Below, piece by piece: positions 5,935 through 13,198 of a DNA stretch of 64,000 nt. The position numbers and the translations under genes are program-made. The notes under the pieces are model-generated. The model saw only the letters and a list, made by a program, of their open reading frames with translations, was not told the origin of the DNA and searched no databases. Position 1 is the first letter of the stretch. Each line of letters opens with the position of its first letter. Source of the stretch: Limnohabitans sp. TEGF004 (GTDB lineage Bacteria > Pseudomonadota > Gammaproteobacteria > Burkholderiales > Burkholderiaceae_C); NCBI RefSeq assembly GCF_027924965.1, contig NZ_AP027056.1:558001-622000 (forward strand). Reading direction: 5' to 3'.

Positions 5935-7422
5935 TTAGTGGCTGTCGGCTTGACGTGCCGCTGCTACCGCAGCCGAGTCGTCTTTGGACGCGCCGTTGAA
6001 GAACAGGTTCAACACCACGGCAGAGATGGAGGCCAACAAGATGCCTGACTCAATCAGTGGGTGCAGGTTGTGCGGCATCCATTGCTTGAAGTTGGGGGCG
6101 ATCAGCGGAATCATGCCGATGCCGATGGAGATGGCCACGACCAAGCTGTTGAAGCGGTTGTTCTTGAAGTCCACGCCGCCCAAGATGCGAATGCCGGTGG
6201 CTGCCACCATGCCAAACATCACCAAGCCAGCACCACCCAAGACCACGGTGGGGAGCGATTCAACCAAAGCGGCCATCTTAGGAATGACACCCAAGATGAT
6301 GAGGATGATGCCGCCAGCCACGCACACAAAGCGGCTCTTCACACCCGTAACGGCGACGAGGCCCACGTTTTGCGAAAAGCTGGTGTAGGGGAAGGTGTTG
6401 AAGATGCCGCCAATCAGCGTGCCCAAACCATCGGTTCGTAAACCACGGGTAAGCGCGGCGCGGTCCACATGACGGTCGGTCATCTCGCCCAAGGCTAAGA
6501 ACATGCCGGTGGATTCGATCATCACCACGATCATCACCAAGGTCATGGTGAGGATGAGCACGGGGTCAAACACAGGCATACCAAACTGGAACGGTGTGAC
6601 GATGCCAAACCATTCGGCTTTGCCCACTTTGTCAAAGTTCATTAGCCCGAAGCTGGTGGCCACGACGCCACCAATGATGATGCCCAAGAGCACTGAGATG
6701 TTTGCGATGAAGCCTTTGGCGAACTTAGAAATCATCAAGATGGACACCAAGACCAAAGATGCAATGCCCACGCCTGTGAGGTCGGCGTATTTGGGGTTAG
6801 GCACTTTAGCCATCAAAGCCAAATCTTTGGGCACGGCAGCCAGCGTGGAGCCCGGTGCCGAAGCAGCCGCTGCAGCGTCAGCCAGCCACTTAGCGTGCTC
6901 TGGGTTGACGATGGATGGGGCTGTGGGGCCGAAGGGGTTGCCAAAAATCCAGTTGATGCCGATGCGCATCAAGCTGATACCGATGACGGCAATGATGGTG
7001 CCCGTCACGACTGGTGGGAAGAACCGCAACATGCGGCTGACCAGCGGTGCGATGAGGATAGAAATGGCACCGGCACCCATGATGGCGCCGAAGATGAGTT
7101 GAGCGCCTGCGTCGCCGGGGTTGGCGTTGGCCATGGCCACCATCGGTGCCACAGCAGCAAAGGTCACGCCCATCATGACGGGCAAGCGAATGCCAAACCA
7201 TTGGGTGGCGCCCCACGATTGAATGAGGGTGACCAAACCGCAGACAAACAAGTCGGCTGAAATCAGCATGGCCACTTGTTCAGGGCTGAGCTTCAAAGCA
7301 CGGCCAACGATGAGTGGCACAGCCACAGCGCCTGCGTACATGACGAGCACGTGTTGCAAGCCGAGAGCGGCGAGCTTGCCGGTGGGCAAGTGTTCGTCGA
7401 CGGGATGGGTGGATTGGGACAT
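5935..7422 (-). CDS. Nucleobase:cation symporter 2, xanthine/urate-type permease
   Basis: This 495-residue polytopic membrane protein of the NCS2 (UraA/XanQ) family has about 12-14 helices. Motifs include GLQHVLVMYAGAVAVPLIVG near the N-terminus, VMIESTGMFLALGEM in the substrate helix and GLRTDGLGTLIGGIFNTFPYTSFSQNVG. The ESTG motif is typical of xanthine/urate rather than uracil carriers. I chose the second ATG of an ATG-ATG pair (7422) because AAGGAG lies five bases upstream; the open frame extends further into the operator and is unlikely to be translated. A TGTATACA operator lies 33 bp upstream. It supplies substrate for the xanthine dehydrogenase/urate oxidase genes to the right. Confidence 0.9.
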   Translation of the reverse strand: MSQSTHPVDEHLPTGKLAALGLQHVLVMYAGAVAVPLIVGRALKLSPEQVAMLISADLFVCGLVTLIQSWGATQWFGIRLPVMMGVTFAAVAPMVAMANANPGDAGAQLIFGAIMGAGAISILIAPLVSRMLRFFPPVVTGTIIAVIGISLMRIGINWIFGNPFGPTAPSIVNPEHAKWLADAAAAASAPGSTLAAVPKDLALMAKVPNPKYADLTGVGIASLVLVSILMISKFAKGFIANISVLLGIIIGGVVATSFGLMNFDKVGKAEWFGIVTPFQFGMPVFDPVLILTMTLVMIVVMIESTGMFLALGEMTDRHVDRAALTRGLRTDGLGTLIGGIFNTFPYTSFSQNVGLVAVTGVKSRFVCVAGGIILIILGVIPKMAALVESLPTVVLGGAGLVMFGMVAATGIRILGGVDFKNNRFNSLVVAISIGIGMIPLIAPNFKQWMPHNLHPLIESGILLASISAVVLNLFFNGASKDDSAAVAAARQADSH

Positions 7423-7455
7423 CATTTCTCCTTGTGGATTTTTCGCATACAAAAC

Positions 7456-7463
7456 TGTATACA
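7456..7463. promoter_or_regulatory. GntR-type operator TGTATACA, site 3
   Basis: The 8 bp palindrome lies in the leader or promoter of the purine permease gene, 33 bp before its ATG. A related half-like sequence GCATACAAAA (7445-7454) sits directly beside it, which could extend the site on one side. No sigma-54 or NtrC motif is seen here. Confidence 0.6.
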
Positions 7464-7522
7464 AAATATTGTTGGAGCGACTTACGGAGAAACCCTATTT
7501 TTGTGTGGTTTTGCTGGGCTCG

Positions 7523-7598
7523 CTGTGCGCAGAGGACTTGGGCCGGTTCCTCATGCTGGGTACAGAAATCGTCACCGGCCCAAGCCCTCTACGCACAG
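7523..7598 (+). repeat. Structured hairpin element, copy 1
   Basis: A 25 bp stem (7523-7547 with 7574-7598, two mismatches) encloses a 26-base core. The core has a 5' strand TCCTCATG, a small hairpin CTG-GGTA-CAG and a 3' strand AAATCGTC. Copy 2 at 7749-7826 has the same core on the other strand but different stem bases. Conserved core with covarying stems suggests selection on a folded RNA or single-stranded DNA. I do not recognise the family. Confidence 0.75.
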
Positions 7599-7748
7599 AC
7601 TGCGGCTGGCAAATGTTTGGTTAGAACTGTTCCTTGCAGAGGTTTGTTCTTTGGCTTGCATATGTGCACCGATTCATCGCACGCTGCCAGTTCGCAAATT
7701 TGTACCGCCAACGTGAAGCGTGGGCCTAGGGTGTTTCAATTCAAAACA

Positions 7749-7826
7749 GTTGTGCGGCTTGGGTGCGGCGGCCGACGATTTCTGGTACCCCAGCATGAGG
7801 AGGCCGCCGCACCCAAGCTGCGCAAC
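7749..7826 (-). repeat. Structured hairpin element, copy 2
   Basis: A 25 bp stem (7749-7773 with 7802-7826) contains only two G-T wobble pairs and no true mismatch. It encloses a 28-base core which on the minus strand reads TCCTCATG, then CTGG-GGTA-CCAG, then AAATCGTC. Compared with copy 1 the inner hairpin has gained a compensated base pair. It lies 31 bp past the M20 hydrolase stop, so it would form in the 3' end of that mRNA, but no U-tract follows it. Confidence 0.78.
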
Positions 7827-7857
7827 CCCCTCCGGAGCGAAACTCTACGAAACAGGT

Positions 7858-9108
7858 TTAGCTCAACAAATCCAACAAGGTGCGCGCCACCACCTTGGTC
7901 GCCCGACGCACATCTTCCAACATCACACGTTCATCGTTGCGCTTGGCATGGCTCTCAAGCACAGTGCGTGGCCCTGCGCCGTAGATGACGCCGGGAATGC
8001 CTTGCGCCACATACAAGCGCACATCGGTGTACAGCGGCGTGCCCACAGCGGGGATGGGCTCGCCAAACAATTCGCCCCCGTGTTTTTGGATGGCGTCCAC
8101 CAAAGGCTTGTTGCCAGCCAGCGGCACCATGGCCTTGGCGAGCAAGAGGCGTTTGATGTCGACTTTGAGTTGCTTGCCACCACGGGGTGGGTTGAATGAA
8201 GCGGCTGCGTCTTCGATGGTTTTGCGAATGGACGCTTCCACTTCAACGGGGTTCTCTTCCGGAATCATGCGGCGGTCGAGTTTGAACACGACCTTGCCGG
8301 GCACGACGTTGGTGTTGGTGCCGCCGGTGATTTGACCCACGTTGAGGTAGGGGTGAGTGATGCCTTCGATCTTGGAGGTGGTTTGTTTGTATCCCTCATT
8401 GAGCGCGTGCAGGGCGTTCAGGATGTGCACCGCGCCTTGCAAGGCATCTGTGCCGCTGTCGGGAATGGCGGCGTGGGCCATTTCGCCTTGCACGGTGACT
8501 TCCATTTGCAAGCAGCCGTTGTGGGCGGTGACCACTTGGTAGCTAAAGCCGGCGGCAATCATCAAGTCGGGTTTGGTCAGGTCGTGAGACAGCAACCAGC
8601 CTGGGCCTTTTTCGCCGCCAAATTCTTCGTCGTAGGTGAAGTGCAGTTCAACGCCGCCTTTCAACGGCAGGCCCAAAGATTCGAGTGCGCGTGTGGCAAA
8701 GGTGAAGGTAGAAAAGTCGCTCTTGCTCACCGCTGTGGCGCGGCCGTACATGGCGCCGTTTTCAATCTCAGCGCCGTAAGGCTTGTGTGTCCAGCCTTCG
8801 CCCGGAGGGACCACATCGCCGTGTGCGTTGAGCGCAATGGTTTTGCCGCCATCGGCAAACTTGCGGCGCACGATGAGGTTGGTGATGCTTTCCAAACCGT
8901 AGGCTTTCATCTCGTCAGCAGGCACGGCGTGCTTTTCGGCTTCGTAGCCAAAGCTGTGCAGCAGCTCGGCAGTGCGCTCGGCGTGGGGTGCGTTGTTGCC
9001 GGGCGGGGTGTCGGTGGGGACTTGCACCAAGGCTTGCAAGAACTTCACTTGCTCGTCAAAGTGCGCGTCGATCCAAGCGTCGAGTTGGGCGTATTGGGTT
9101 TGGCTCAT
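7858..9108 (-). CDS. M20 family metallohydrolase (ArgE/DapE-like)
   Basis: This 416-residue cytosolic amidohydrolase has the M20 catalytic pattern: HGD (96-98) in LNAHGDVVPPGEGW and the acidic pair in YDEEFGG (160-162). A dimerisation domain follows (about 190-310) and a C-terminal His lies in the ESHAKRNDER region. Where most M20 enzymes read GRGASDMKG it reads GRATAVSKSDF (122-132), so the usual bridging Asp position is Val127. Its place between the purine permease and the allantoate hydrolase suggests it cleaves a ureido or amide intermediate, possibly ureidoglycolate, but that is inference. It is 36 bp downstream of the UraD-AllC gene, likely in one transcript. Confidence 0.8.
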   Translation of the reverse strand: MSQTQYAQLDAWIDAHFDEQVKFLQALVQVPTDTPPGNNAPHAERTAELLHSFGYEAEKHAVPADEMKAYGLESITNLIVRRKFADGGKTIALNAHGDVVPPGEGWTHKPYGAEIENGAMYGRATAVSKSDFSTFTFATRALESLGLPLKGGVELHFTYDEEFGGEKGPGWLLSHDLTKPDLMIAAGFSYQVVTAHNGCLQMEVTVQGEMAHAAIPDSGTDALQGAVHILNALHALNEGYKQTTSKIEGITHPYLNVGQITGGTNTNVVPGKVVFKLDRRMIPEENPVEVEASIRKTIEDAAASFNPPRGGKQLKVDIKRLLLAKAMVPLAGNKPLVDAIQKHGGELFGEPIPAVGTPLYTDVRLYVAQGIPGVIYGAGPRTVLESHAKRNDERVMLEDVRRATKVVARTLLDLLS

Positions 9109-9144
9109 GGTTTGTCTCTGGTTGTTATGGGTGATGCGCAGGCT

Positions 9145-10977
9145 TTAAGCGTGCGTGTTGTGCAGCAAGTGCATGAAGGCGTCGACGCACAGTTGCATGT
9201 CGTCGCTGGTGGTGCTCTCCAGCGGGTTGTGGCTGATGCCGGCGTTTTGGCCGCGCACGAACAACATGGCTTGTGGCATCACTTCATGCAGTTTCATTGC
9301 GTCGTGACCCGCACCGCTGGGAAGGTGGAACACGGGCACGCCCAAGCTTTGCACAGCGTTTTCCCACGCGGCTTGTAGCTTGGCGTCGCTTGGTGCGGCG
9401 CTGGCGCGCATGGTTTCTTCGAGGGTGTAGTGCAAGCCACGGCGCTCACAAATGGCTTTGAGTTCGGCCAGCACATCGTGCATCAGGCTGTCGCGCAATG
9501 CATCGGTGGTGGCGCGCAAATCGAGGCTGAATTGGCAGCGCCCGGGCACCACGTTGATGGAGCCATTGGGCACAGTCAGCATGCCGATCGTGCCAACGCA
9601 TGCTGAAGTTGGCGACTTCGCCGTGTCGGCAGAGACGGCGTTCAATGCTGCTGCGCGTTTTTCAACAAACAACGCCAACTCGGCCACCGAAGTGGCCGCA
9701 TCGCGGCGGCGATCCATCGGTGTCGTGCCTGCGTGGCTGGCCATGCCCACCACTTCGCCCACAAAGCGCACGCTGCCGTTGATGGAGGTGACCACGCCCA
9801 GTGGAATGTCTAGCTCGTTGAGCACAGGGCCTTGTTCGATGTGCACTTCCACAAAACCCAAATACTCAGCTGCGTTGCGGGTGAGTTTGGGGATGTCTTC
9901 AATCTTCAAGCCGGCTTGCTTCATGGCTTGGCGCATCGTGATGCCGTCCGCATCTTTTTGGTCCAGCCACTCGTTTTTGAAATCGCCCACCAAAGCACCA
10001 GAGCCAAGGAAGGTGGCTTTGTAGCGTTGGCCTTCTTCTTCGGCAAAGGCCACCACTTCGAGGTTGAAGGGCAAACGCTTGCCCGCACGGGCCAGCTCGC
10101 GCACACAGGCCATGGGCACGAAGATGCCTAGGCGGCCGTCGTACTTGCCGCCGTTGCGCACGGTGTCGTAGTGCGAACCGGTAATCAAAGTTTTAGCGTG
10201 CTGAGATGAGGCTTTGTAAACACCCACCACGTTGCCCACCGCGTCGATGTGCACCTCGTCAAAGCCGCAGGCCTTCATGCCCAGCTCAATCGTGCGGGCG
10301 CATTTCAGGTGTGCGTCGGTCAGGTAAGTGACGGTGAGTTCTTCGCGTGCGGCGTGCGGTGCGTGTTTGTTGACCACGCCTGCATCGCTGAACTGGGCCA
10401 GCCATTCGTGCCAGTCCCACACTTCGTGGCCTAGCGCGGGTTCGTAGCCCAGCTTGTCGTTGAGGCGAATCTCCACGATGCGGTGGATGTTGCGCAAGCA
10501 CTCGGCCAGTTCGTAGTCGGGGTGGTTGTGCAGGCGGCGCTCGAACGTGCTGATGATTTGTTGTTTGTTCAAGCCAGAGCCACGCGGGCCGCGCACGGCC
10601 AAGATGAATGGGAAACCAAACTTAGCGTTGTAGCTGGCGTTGAGCTGTTGGATGTGCGCAAACTCTTCGGGCGTGCAGTTGGTCAAGCCCGCTTTGGTTT
10701 GTTCGTTGGTCGATTCGGCGGTGAGGCTTTTGCTCACCATCGCTTTGCCTGCCAACTCGGGGTGGGCACGCACCAGTGCGAGCAGGGGTGCGCGGCCTGC
10801 TTTTGCCAGCACCTCCACCATCGCGTGCTTGAGCGCGGCGGCAGATGCAAAAGGGCGTGCGTCTAAGGCTTGCTCGGCAATCCAATCGGAGTGTTCGTAC
10901 AAACCGGTCAGCAATGCCGCAGCCTCAGCGCGGGGCAGGGTGTTGATTTGGTTCAGCGTGATGTGCGAGTGGCTCAT
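9145..10977 (-). CDS. Fused OHCU decarboxylase / allantoate amidohydrolase
   Basis: The 610-residue bifunctional enzyme has two domains. Residues 1-172 form a UraD (OHCU decarboxylase) domain with the active-site His in AHPELAGKA (His72) and the S-x-x-EQ-x-x-x-GL motif near 90-98. UraD converts 2-oxo-4-hydroxy-4-carboxy-5-ureidoimidazoline to S-allantoin. Residues from about 195 to the end form an AllC-type M20 hydrolase, with metal ligands in GSHYDTV (His269, Asp271) and AFAEEEGQRY and the family motif HIEQGP. AllC releases ammonia and CO2 from allantoate. The enzyme for the step between them, allantoinase PuuE, is the next upstream gene, 61 bp away, so the three steps are consecutive. No frameshift or stop breaks the fusion. 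Confidence 0.92.
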   Translation of the reverse strand: MSHSHITLNQINTLPRAEAAALLTGLYEHSDWIAEQALDARPFASAAALKHAMVEVLAKAGRAPLLALVRAHPELAGKAMVSKSLTAESTNEQTKAGLTNCTPEEFAHIQQLNASYNAKFGFPFILAVRGPRGSGLNKQQIISTFERRLHNHPDYELAECLRNIHRIVEIRLNDKLGYEPALGHEVWDWHEWLAQFSDAGVVNKHAPHAAREELTVTYLTDAHLKCARTIELGMKACGFDEVHIDAVGNVVGVYKASSQHAKTLITGSHYDTVRNGGKYDGRLGIFVPMACVRELARAGKRLPFNLEVVAFAEEEGQRYKATFLGSGALVGDFKNEWLDQKDADGITMRQAMKQAGLKIEDIPKLTRNAAEYLGFVEVHIEQGPVLNELDIPLGVVTSINGSVRFVGEVVGMASHAGTTPMDRRRDAATSVAELALFVEKRAAALNAVSADTAKSPTSACVGTIGMLTVPNGSINVVPGRCQFSLDLRATTDALRDSLMHDVLAELKAICERRGLHYTLEETMRASAAPSDAKLQAAWENAVQSLGVPVFHLPSGAGHDAMKLHEVMPQAMLFVRGQNAGISHNPLESTTSDDMQLCVDAFMHLLHNTHA

Positions 10978-11038
10978 GTCGTTGTCCTGCTTGGGGAGTG
11001 AGGCTGTTTAAGGTCGTGTTGAAGGCGTGTGCGAGTGA

Positions 11039-12010
11039 TCAGCTGCCGCTGTACGGATGCACTTGTTTCCAGTGGCGCGCGATGTCGATGCGGCGGGCCA
11101 CCCACACACGGTCGTGCTTGGCGATGTGGTCTAAGAACTTTTGCAATGCCACGATGCGCCCGGGCTTGCCCAGCAAGCGGCAGTGCATGCCAATGCTCAT
11201 CATCTTGGGTGCTTCGTCGCCCTCGGCATACAGCGCATCAAAGCTGTCACGCAAATACACAAAGAAGTCTTCTGCTTGGCTAAAGCCTTGGGGCAAGGCA
11301 AAGCGCATGTCGTTGCAGTCGAGCGTGTAGGGCACCACGAGTTGGGGCGCCACCTCGCCATTGGTTTTTTGGACCTTCATCCAAAAGGGCAGGTCTTCGC
11401 CGTAGTAGTCGCTGTCGTATTCAAAGCCACCGTGGTCGGCCACGAGGCGGCGGGTGTTGGGGCTGTCGCGGCCGGTGTACCAGCCTGCGCCATGAATGCT
11501 GTTGCCGTGCGTGGTGTGTGTGAGGCGCTCGATGATCTCGATGCCTTTGTTCATGTGCGCACGCTCGGTGGCTTCGTCAGTGGTTTGGTAGTTGATCCAG
11601 CGGTAGCCGTGGCAGGCAATTTCGTGGCCGAGTTCTACAAACGCAGCGGTGAGTTCGGGGTGACGCTCGAGCGCCATGCTCACGCCAAACACGGTGAGTG
11701 GGAGGCCGCGTTTTTCAAACTCGCGCAAGATGCGCCACACGCCCACGCGTGACCCGTATTCGTAAATGCCTTCCATACTCAGGTGGCGGTCTGGAAAGCT
11801 AGGCGGGTTGAACATCTCGCTCAAAAACATCTCGCTGCCAGCGTCTCCGTGCACGGTGGCGTTCTCGCCGCCTTCTTCGTAGTTCAGCACAAACTGCACC
11901 GCAATGCGGGCTTGGTTGGGCCATTGCGCGTGCGGCACTTGGCGACCGTAACCTACGAGGTCACGAGGGTAGGCAGCGGTGCTGTCGTAGGTGGCATTGG
12001 GGTTGGACAT
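11039..12010 (-). CDS. puuE: Allantoinase PuuE (metal-independent, polysaccharide deacetylase fold)
   Basis: This 323-residue protein of the NodB-like superfamily carries the PuuE hallmarks NYEEGGENA near the N-terminus, EIACHGYRWINYQ, HGAGWYTGRDSPNTRRL and DSDYYGEDLPFW. It hydrolyses S-allantoin to allantoate in the cytoplasm. The start is the ATG at 12010, with GGAG seven bases upstream; the open frame continues to 12112 but the extra residues are arginine-rich and unlike the family. It sits between the GntR gene and the UraD-AllC gene on the same strand, as part of a urate-degradation operon. Confidence 0.93.
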   Translation of the reverse strand: MSNPNATYDSTAAYPRDLVGYGRQVPHAQWPNQARIAVQFVLNYEEGGENATVHGDAGSEMFLSEMFNPPSFPDRHLSMEGIYEYGSRVGVWRILREFEKRGLPLTVFGVSMALERHPELTAAFVELGHEIACHGYRWINYQTTDEATERAHMNKGIEIIERLTHTTHGNSIHGAGWYTGRDSPNTRRLVADHGGFEYDSDYYGEDLPFWMKVQKTNGEVAPQLVVPYTLDCNDMRFALPQGFSQAEDFFVYLRDSFDALYAEGDEAPKMMSIGMHCRLLGKPGRIVALQKFLDHIAKHDRVWVARRIDIARHWKQVHPYSGS

Positions 12011-12065
12011 GCAATAACTCCGTATTTGAATAAGCGCAAGCGTTGAGCTGGAAAAGCGCAAGCGC

Positions 12066-12734
12066 TTAGGCCAAAGCCATCGCGATGTCGTTGCTGGGCA
12101 CTTTGCGGTCAAGCGCCAAACCTTCTTCCACGTTGCGCAGGTGTTCGTCCATCAGCTTGACGGCCAAGTCTTCGTCTTTGGCGGCGATGGCTTTCAAAAT
12201 TTCGGCGTGTTCTTCGGCCGAGTGTTCGGCGGCATTGCTGCTTTGGTACATCAAGGTGATGAGGGCGCAGCGTGAAATGAGTTCGCCCAAAATTTGCGCG
12301 AGTACATCGTTGCCCATCAGCTCGGCCATGCGCACATGGAAGTCGCCCAGCAAGTCGGTTCGGCCAGCTACATCGCCACGGCTGACGGCTGCTTTCTCTT
12401 CGGTCACGTGGTCTTTGAGGGCTTTGATTTGTGCGGAGGTGACGTTGCGCACAAAGCTGCGTGTCATCTCAGCTTCCAACATGCGGCGCACGGCAAACAC
12501 TTGGCGGGCTTCGTCGGAAGAGGGCGTGGCCACAAACGCACCGCGCGCGGGCTCCATGCGGATGAGGCGCTTTTGCACCAGTTGAAACAGCGCTTGGCGA
12601 ATGAGGGTGCGTGACACGCCGAAGTGGTCGGCGAGTTTTTGCTCGGCCAGTTTGGTGCCGGGGTGCAGACGGTGCTCCACAATGGCTTTGGTGAGGGCGT
12701 CCACAATGCTGCGAGTGGCGGTTGAGCTGTCCAT
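12066..12734 (-). CDS. GntR family regulator, FCD (FadR/VanR) subfamily
   Basis: The 222-residue protein has an N-terminal winged helix (about 8-75: GTKLAEQKLADHFGVSRTLIRQAL, the GntR recognition helix) and a C-terminal all-helical FCD ligand domain with the conserved R-x-x-LE motif (VRRMLEAEM) and metal-site histidines (FHVRMAE, EEHAEIL). It is divergent from hiuH across a 107 bp gap that contains one TGTATACA operator; five more copies lie upstream of neighbouring purine and transport genes. I infer it represses the purine-catabolic genes and itself, with a pathway intermediate as effector. A palindromic AAGCGCAAGCGCTT overlaps its stop codon. Confidence 0.9.
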   Translation of the reverse strand: MDSSTATRSIVDALTKAIVEHRLHPGTKLAEQKLADHFGVSRTLIRQALFQLVQKRLIRMEPARGAFVATPSSDEARQVFAVRRMLEAEMTRSFVRNVTSAQIKALKDHVTEEKAAVSRGDVAGRTDLLGDFHVRMAELMGNDVLAQILGELISRCALITLMYQSSNAAEHSAEEHAEILKAIAAKDEDLAVKLMDEHLRNVEEGLALDRKVPSNDIAMALA

Positions 12735-12788
12735 TTCGGGTCTCCGGCAAATTCACGTGAGTCTCATGATAGACCCAAATGCAAAAAT

Positions 12789-12796
12789 TGTATACA
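12789..12796. promoter_or_regulatory. GntR-type operator TGTATACA, site 4 (gntR/hiuH divergent promoter)
   Basis: The palindrome lies in the 107 bp gap between the divergent GntR and HIU hydrolase genes, in the context ATTGTATACACTTT. This position allows autoregulation and control of hiuH together. The right flank matches the puuD site at 18024, which also continues as CTTT. Confidence 0.65.
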
Positions 12797-12841
12797 CTTT
12801 CAGTCGACCAAGTCGGTCGCTAACCATTTTCGGAGCATTTC

Positions 12842-13198
12842 ATGGGATTGAGCACACACGTTTTAGACACCATGCACGGCGGCCCCGCAGCTGGCATGAA
12901 AGTGTCCCTGTTCACCACCACCGAGGATGGCCACGCCACCTTGGTCAAGTCGTTCCACCTCAACCACGATGGCCGCAACCCCGACGGCCTGCTGTACGAC
13001 AACGACAGCTTGAAAAAAGGCACCTACCGCTTGGTGTTTGATGTGAAGGGCTACTTTGCCTCTCGGCATGTTGAATTGCCTGAGCCTAATTTCTTGAACC
13101 AAGTCAGCCTTGACTTTGGCGTGGCCCACACTGATCAGCACTATCACGTTCCCTTGTTGGTAAGTCCTTGGAGTTACTCGACCTATCGCGGGTCTTAA
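12842..13198 (+). CDS. uraH: 5-hydroxyisourate hydrolase (transthyretin-like)
   Basis: This 118-residue protein of the transthyretin-like family begins with LSTHVLDTMHGGPAAG and ends with the signature tetrapeptide YRGS. The catalytic His, Arg and Ser/His residues are in the expected places (His6 in STHVLD; HYHVPLLVSPW before YRGS). It hydrolyses 5-hydroxyisourate to OHCU, the step between urate oxidase PuuD and the UraD domain. It acts as a cytoplasmic tetramer; no signal peptide is seen. CGGAG lies 8 bases before the ATG. It is the first gene of the plus-strand half of the purine cluster. Confidence 0.95.
   Translation: MGLSTHVLDTMHGGPAAGMKVSLFTTTEDGHATLVKSFHLNHDGRNPDGLLYDNDSLKKGTYRLVFDVKGYFASRHVELPEPNFLNQVSLDFGVAHTDQHYHVPLLVSPWSYSTYRGS

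Follow-up and report, generated by a model that had tools for sequence, protein, structure and literature searches.

A probable REP-like family of long-stemmed, paired palindromic hairpins in Comamonadaceae

Described palindromic repeats and the hairpin pair of the window

Among the palindromic repeats described in bacteria, the closest to the elements reported here are the RAYT-linked GTAG REPs, with their BIME and REPIN arrangements. Excerpts of the sources portray them as dispersed palindromes that form inverted dimers, lie mostly between genes near 3' ends, are recognised folded on one strand, and occasionally sit in frame within genes, including uvrA (PMC3733652, PMC8266576, PMC2817692, PMC3116915). 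The excerpts further state that TnpA-REP binds folded single-stranded REPs, of one strand only (PMC8266576), that REPINs, which are inverted doublets, are thought to owe their movement to RAYTs acting in trans (PMC3116915), and that REP insertions in uvrA of other bacteria have already been published (PMC3733652). The present elements are likewise dispersed palindromes that form inverted dimers, lie mostly between genes near 3' ends and have some in-frame copies, uvrA being one of the hosts; wobble pairs suggest indirectly that one folded strand may be used in their case too. Unlike the GTAG REPs, whose stems have 5–13 bp, they have one of about 25 bp, their apex and not their stem is conserved, the foot of the hairpin is not enriched in GTAG, and RAYT-like loci are not flanked by the element. 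The CGTC REPs, as far as an excerpt of PMC3733652 goes, likewise form dimers, have intragenic copies and come without a linked transposase; however, their stem is 8–9 bp with CGTC (or TGTC, CCTC) at its foot, whereas in the present elements GACG, the reverse complement of CGTC, lies within the apical core. Rickettsia palindromic elements (RPE) are in-frame palindromes within protein genes too, but they belong to other bacteria, and the same excerpt assigns RPE-4 and RPE-6 to the CGTC REPs (PMC3733652); the likeness is by description only. MITEs are comparable as short non-autonomous units, here of about 230–330 bp and present or absent as a whole, but the units described here show no evident terminal inverted repeats of a known transposase and no proven target duplication.

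The window analysed is the whole stretch of 64,000 nucleotides of Limnohabitans sp. TEGF004, and it contains two such hairpins with the following parts.

7523..7598, minus strand: hairpin 1, type A, with a 25 bp stem and a 26 nt core (model match G000:C1:565523-565598)
7523-7547 and 7574-7598: arms of hairpin 1
7548..7573, minus strand: core of hairpin 1, consisting of GACGATTT, a 3 bp cap hairpin CTG-TACC-CAG, and CATGAGGA
7749..7826, plus strand: hairpin 2, type B, with a 25 bp stem and a 28 nt core (model match G000:C1:565749-565826)
7749-7773 and 7802-7826: arms of hairpin 2
7774..7801, plus strand: core of hairpin 2, consisting of GACGATTT, a 4 bp cap hairpin CTGG-TACC-CCAG, and CATGAGGA
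7599..7748, no strand: spacer between the hairpins, 150 bp; at the same locus 113 bp in G140 and 30 bp in G033
7509..7522, minus strand: outer flank of type A, CGAGCCCAGCAAAA; alike, by eye, in other type A copies
7599..7606, minus strand: inner flank of type A, GCCGCAGT; alike, by eye, in other type A copies
7827..7849, plus strand: outer flank of type B, CCCCTCCGGAGCGAAACTCTACG; a similar sequence, by eye, follows other type B copies
7485..7497, plus strand: stretch left of the pair, CGGAGAAACCCTA; similar to that at 7833-7847
7833..7847, plus strand: stretch right of the pair, CGGAGCGAAACTCTA; resembles 7485-7497

The coordinates, the 25 bp arms, the core and the inverted orientation are all as an earlier note, made from the sequence of the window, had given them. 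The fold goes beyond chance, since each of the four hairpin strands folds better than all 200 of its own shuffles (z of -7.5 to -10.4 as RNA and -7.2 to -8.6 as DNA). The GACGATTT strands of the two hairpins point in opposite directions, away from each other. On the plus strand hairpin 1 has two mismatches, C.A and A.C, which on the minus strand are G.U wobbles, and throughout the pair imperfect positions are G-U on the GACGATTT strand and A-C on the other. Because the mismatches are G.U there, full pairing is confined to the strand with the order GACGATTT, cap, CATGAGGA (minus in copy 1, plus in copy 2). The functional strand would be minus for hairpin 1 and plus for hairpin 2.

The pair is flanked by a xanthine permease gene (pbuX-like, ORF 5935-7464, minus strand) and by an ArgE/DapE-like hydrolase gene (7858-9108, minus strand) whose match is slightly under the curated cut-off. 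The surrounding region, 5935-13198, is a purine breakdown cluster with the xanthine permease, the ArgE/DapE-like hydrolase, the allantoinase PuuE, a hydroxyisourate hydrolase, a fusion of OHCU decarboxylase with an allantoate amidohydrolase-like part (610 aa), and a regulator that is of GntR type as read from its sequence.

Copies, sites and paired units

Further copies in related genomes, which the earlier note had proposed to look for, do exist and are dispersed across Comamonadaceae. A covariance model built from 34 copies gives 12 matches in the own genome, arranged as four pairs and four singles (a narrower core pattern gave 8), and only two of these 12, the two hairpins, lie within the window. 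In the large scans, for which strict filters were applied, matches occur in 70 of 399 genomes and 40 of 141 genera of the Comamonadaceae sample, in 3 of 200 genomes of the order sample, two of them Comamonadaceae, and in 4 of 398 genomes of the phylum sample, all Comamonadaceae; the third order-level match (G058) is weak and was rejected, its core being absent on inspection. Within the own genus 12 of 41 genomes have a match and 29 have none. Carriers hold from 1 to 62 matches, and ten genomes that were re-searched hold 11–62 each. They include Limnohabitans sp. Bal53 (17 matches), Limnohabitans sp. WS1 (14), Malikia spinosa (16), two Rhodoferax MAGs (4 and 6), a Limnohabitans MAG (10) and Burkholderiales bacterium 39-55-53 (19). 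A Bacteroidia MAG has a hairpin with exact core flanks and a stem of 24–25 bp (L127, 387-467); a search of that genome gave no match at E 0.01.

An origin from phages or plasmids was rejected: the (narrow) core pattern occurs in 103 viral stretches, none of which passed the stem filter, and the window pair had no blastn match among phages and plasmids. The earlier note had also raised identity with an Rfam family, and none was found: there is no match above the curated threshold in the window and six element loci, and those below the Rfam threshold are mostly to microRNA hairpins. No published description of this family was found in the literature searched, a weak sign of novelty with most subscription journals outside its scope. 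The taxon names sought were absent from PMC12306157 and PMC6006769, and PMC2267715 yielded Bordetella only.

At 46 hand-picked loci with simple ORF calls there are 52 intergenic units, 3 units at edges being set aside: 29 lie between genes of the same direction, 18 between convergent and 5 between divergent genes, at a median of 43 nt from 3' ends versus 84 nt from 5' ends. Other copies are situated inside genes, with 44 of 190 aligned rows falling within ORFs of at least 250 aa; the host ORFs number 28, seven of them unconfirmed as real genes. Some hairpins lie in frame within their host genes, mostly uvrA. A double-length UvrA is the host at 18 loci (17 with 66–93% identity to the Limnohabitans WS1 protein, and that protein itself), a strict count from which two of 20 UvrA-clustered loci are excluded as unconfirmed. 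The hairpins occupy three sites of this protein, near residues 508-589, 1106-1170 and 1737-1798 in WS1, and the 11 UvrA-hosted dimers listed all run minus then plus along the gene. With copies at three linker sites, double-length UvrA provides a clear example of a repair protein shaped by palindromes. HrpA (own genome, C1:1494954) and LeuS are further hosts, as is an incomplete formate-dehydrogenase-like ORF whose match is below its cut-off. Double-length UvrA fusions of about 1950–2330 aa, in which as many as three linker sites carry hairpins, are seen in several genera at loci L016, L053, L297 and L298.

Most copies come as inverted pairs, and adjacent copies follow one arrangement. They run minus then plus in 56 of 57 distinct pairs, of which 19 come from G124, with gaps of 30–222 bp (59 of 60 pairs before merging). 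The 62 matches of G124 comprise 29 pairs (58 matches, starts 151–156 bp apart) and 4 lone matches, 3 of which are at contig ends; its unit is about 230 bp long, and the spacer bears an additional inverted repeat. The G124 spacers (e.g., L397-L399) hold the palindrome GGTAGCGCGCTACC...ACTACCGGTAGCGCGC, which contains GTAG. Judged by eye, a type A and a type B hairpin, each with its own flanking motifs, are joined in 6 of 8 dimers, while the spacers look unrelated between loci; three of these eight do not come from independent positions, the window and L338 being the same locus. At L237 (272-1110, G008:C3) there is an array of several like-oriented hairpins, three of which are spaced by 174 bp, and it ends in a hairpin of opposite orientation.

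The pair with its spacer is gained or lost together, as in BIMEs and REPINs, and two orthologous loci have empty sites. At the window locus, G000, G033 and G140 are filled, with 279–397 nt between the genes, and G028, G003 and G023 are empty, with 54–137 nt; two more permease-like loci (G002, G038) have a different arrangement or were left out. At the second locus, beside a gene that reads as panC, 18 of 30 loci show both flanking genes (the other 12 are without one of them), and the pair is present in 3 of these 18 genomes and absent from 15, whose gaps are 2–96 nt. The empty sites of G028 and G003 have a single stretch like CGGAGAAACCCTA and CGGAGCGAAACTCTA, and the 13–15 bp repeat, found at the window locus only, is a possible target duplication; 7485-7497 and 7833-7847 are unproven as such because the right copy may belong to the type B flank. 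Absence in relatives could also partly reflect loss, and movement is something we infer, not something directly observed. In G007 the gap beside panC holds GATTGCTTCGCTGCGCTCGCAATGACGG where other genomes hold the new element (L436), and this sequence resembles a CGTC-type REP.

Two other origins were discarded. Insertion of the core into pre-existing palindromes was rejected because core and stem spread together; related stems are seen repeatedly in the G124 copies and in the type B copies of the own genus. An autonomous element, its gene enclosed by distant hairpins, was likewise rejected: spacings of about 1.6–2 kb in L297, L298 and L299 are insertion sites within one uvrA-type gene, and the 0.8 kb interval of L308 holds what reads as a superoxide dismutase gene.

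Covariation and the strand that carries the signal

The earlier note had read covariation from the two copies of the window. Two copies alone are insufficient for that, whereas the family supports the covariation and with it a selected fold. In alignment A2, which comprises 34 distinct of 42 copies (omitted are the chance-like L109, L127 and six near-duplicates), 93.9% of cells are paired versus 60.1% when shuffled, both partners vary in 26 of 29 pairs, and the covariation score is 0.833 versus 0.203 for shuffled and 0.109–0.152 for slid alignments; none of 500 shuffles attains any of five covariation measures. A2 is biased at the core flanks, which the first search pattern demanded, and the covariance model also recovered core-flank variants such as CCGATTT and TATGAGG. 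A larger alignment, A4, holds the best 150 of 207 matches. Stem length has a median of 25 bp and a 5–95% range of 19–30 (161 of 174 hairpins, those with a readable core). The stem sequence is largely free, with a 5' arm that is G-rich near the core and an outer stem without invariant column. The conserved part is the apex, formed by an 8+8 internal loop and the cap hairpin, and the cap itself is variable with its pairing mostly kept (CTGG-CCAG, CTG-CAG, CTGC-GCAG, TGGC-GCCG, GTGC-GCAC).

Mutation without selection should give equal numbers of GU and AC. On the GACGATTT strand of 174 distinct hairpins there are 267 GU and 65 AC, about 4:1, and a model-free count over 42 copies gave 77 and 16; the covariance model behind the former and the pairing filter of the latter may slightly favour GU copies. 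The ratio is 21:2 in the own genome and 67:19 in G124, and the two members of the dimer, although on opposite strands, give 87:14 and 88:24. In hairpins sense to confirmed genes GU:AC is 38:13, and in those antisense to confirmed genes it is 25:7 (17 hairpins, p 0.002; 10 hairpins versus 1), in a small sample and with p-values that are too small throughout, because many hairpins share ancestry. A looser in-gene set gives 33:9 antisense and 38:14 sense. Selection on the mRNA would predict a reversed ratio in the antisense hairpins, and since 25:7 is seen, the signal is tied to the DNA strand of the hairpin itself. The asymmetry speaks for a single strand of DNA that folds, more than for an RNA.

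It is probable that the pair in the window is one dimer of a REP/BIME-like, non-autonomous palindromic family of Comamonadaceae which acts as a single-stranded DNA hairpin. Of the three options of the earlier note (REP/MITE-like mobile hairpin, recombination site, new ncRNA class), the first is the best supported, by inverted pairs, empty sites, and dispersed and in-frame copies; a linked transposase, sought as Y1/RAYT, was not found beside it. The ncRNA class is not favoured, because the asymmetry of wobbles and mismatches tracks the strand of the hairpin and not the direction of transcription, and because 30 bp gaps leave little room for promoters. That the hairpins act as RNA, be it as an element that stabilises or processes mRNA, as a terminator or as a divergent pair of small RNAs, is nevertheless the strongest of the rivals, though an unlikely one. 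Covariation is strong, G-U is tolerated, the hairpins sit close after stop codons, and an excerpt of PMC3733652 takes up the roles of REPs at the RNA level; yet the strand signal is present also in hairpins antisense to the host gene and in both members of the dimer despite their opposite strands, and gaps down to 30 bp are scant space for two promoters. No promoter-like site was found in 7400-7900, and the single terminator-like site (7876-7897) lies outside the pair, so that a promoter or terminator pair was rejected for the window. On the GACGATTT strand no hairpin of 170 is followed by a T-rich stretch, as a terminator should be, and on the opposite strand 5 of 170 are (flank counts, here and for the feet below, use 170 of the 174 hairpins).

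BIMEs have reportedly been proposed to bind gyrase or IHF. An architectural site of the chromosome, with a host protein bound to hairpins or cruciforms and the copies maintained for this role and not as mobile DNA, would agree with their retention at orthologous sites in three relatives and with the fixed dimer geometry of G124. We hold it to be improbable, as 29 of 41 genomes of the own genus do without a match, carriers range from 1 to 62, and the in-gene copies are hard to account for. Somewhat more doubtful still is that mutation alone, through template switching between the arms, keeps the palindromes perfect around a conserved core with no selection on the fold. In its favour, a minimum spanning tree of 33 stems in G124 has 126 stem differences, of which 72 are two-sided Watson-Crick changes, and 34 of those 72 are of transversion type and cannot pass through G-U; the tree also bridges two stem families, which inflates the count of two-sided changes. 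Template copying, however, should not favour G-T over A-C on one strand, as the 267:65 ratio has it. Recombination sites of the integron attC kind also fold strand-specifically with a largely free stem and would be read as a folded single strand, but conserved boxes at the stem ends are absent here, the outer stem has no invariant column and the apex is the conserved part. We consider this reading very improbable, though the counter-evidence is weak.

Relation to the REP families and mode of spread

We return to the REP/BIME-like single-stranded DNA hairpin. Identity with a known REP family, another outcome that the earlier note had allowed for, did not hold, as the defining features of both the GTAG and the CGTC families are absent. 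The median stem of 25 bp is outside the 5–13 bp of GTAG REPs and the 8–9 bp of CGTC REPs. In 14-nt windows unpaired GTAG occurs at 7 (5') and 6 (3') feet of 170 hairpins versus 27 and 4 in control windows, and CGTC at 5 and 7 of 170 versus 4 and 8 in controls; neither is enriched. CCTC is found at 4 of 170 5' feet (control 3) and at 23 of 170 3' feet (control 4), and this 3' excess is perhaps part of the type B flank. The best reading is a new REP-like family with unusual anatomy, which by the tests made stands outside both tagged REP families.

A linked transposase, which the earlier note had suggested checking for, was sought among Y1 and RAYT genes only and none lies beside the element. There is no copy around the RAYT-like loci of 22 carriers (about 3 kb on each side for 19 and about 1.5 kb for 3, with G430 cut by a contig end), nor at 13 Y1 loci in 13 genomes; in the survey of those 13 loci, 3 of 7 carrier loci are RAYT-like (G000, G227, G439), and the other four are the best Y1 match of another type. 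The nearest listed distance from a RAYT or Y1 gene to a copy is about 4 kb, in G140. Of 36 genomes tested, some with the element and some lacking it, 35 have genes of these types.

The working form of the element would be the folded single DNA strand of GACGATTT, cap and CATGAGGA, exposed for example at the replication fork, and a protein may read core and stem as a shape. An HUH-type enzyme, Y1- or RAYT-like, could have copied or moved the dimer in trans. Selection for the hairpin, perhaps together with template-directed correction between the arms, would keep the complementarity while the sequence drifts, and effects on nearby genes would be a by-product. More tentatively, the family could represent a third super-family of bacterial palindromic repeats that is read by shape, in which a putative enzyme or binding protein recognises the 8+8 loop and the cap at the tip of a stem of nearly fixed length and free sequence, on one DNA strand; if so, the wobble pairs in the stems record single-strand selection. 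Because a conserved stem or tag is the usual means of recognising REP-like repeats, families with a free stem are easily missed, and it was the covariance model that found this one. The comparison of G-T with A-C in sense and antisense in-gene hairpins offers a simple test between selection on RNA and on single-stranded DNA.

Among the genomes of the family, G075 has twenty Y1 transposase matches, several of equal score and some split across two frames.
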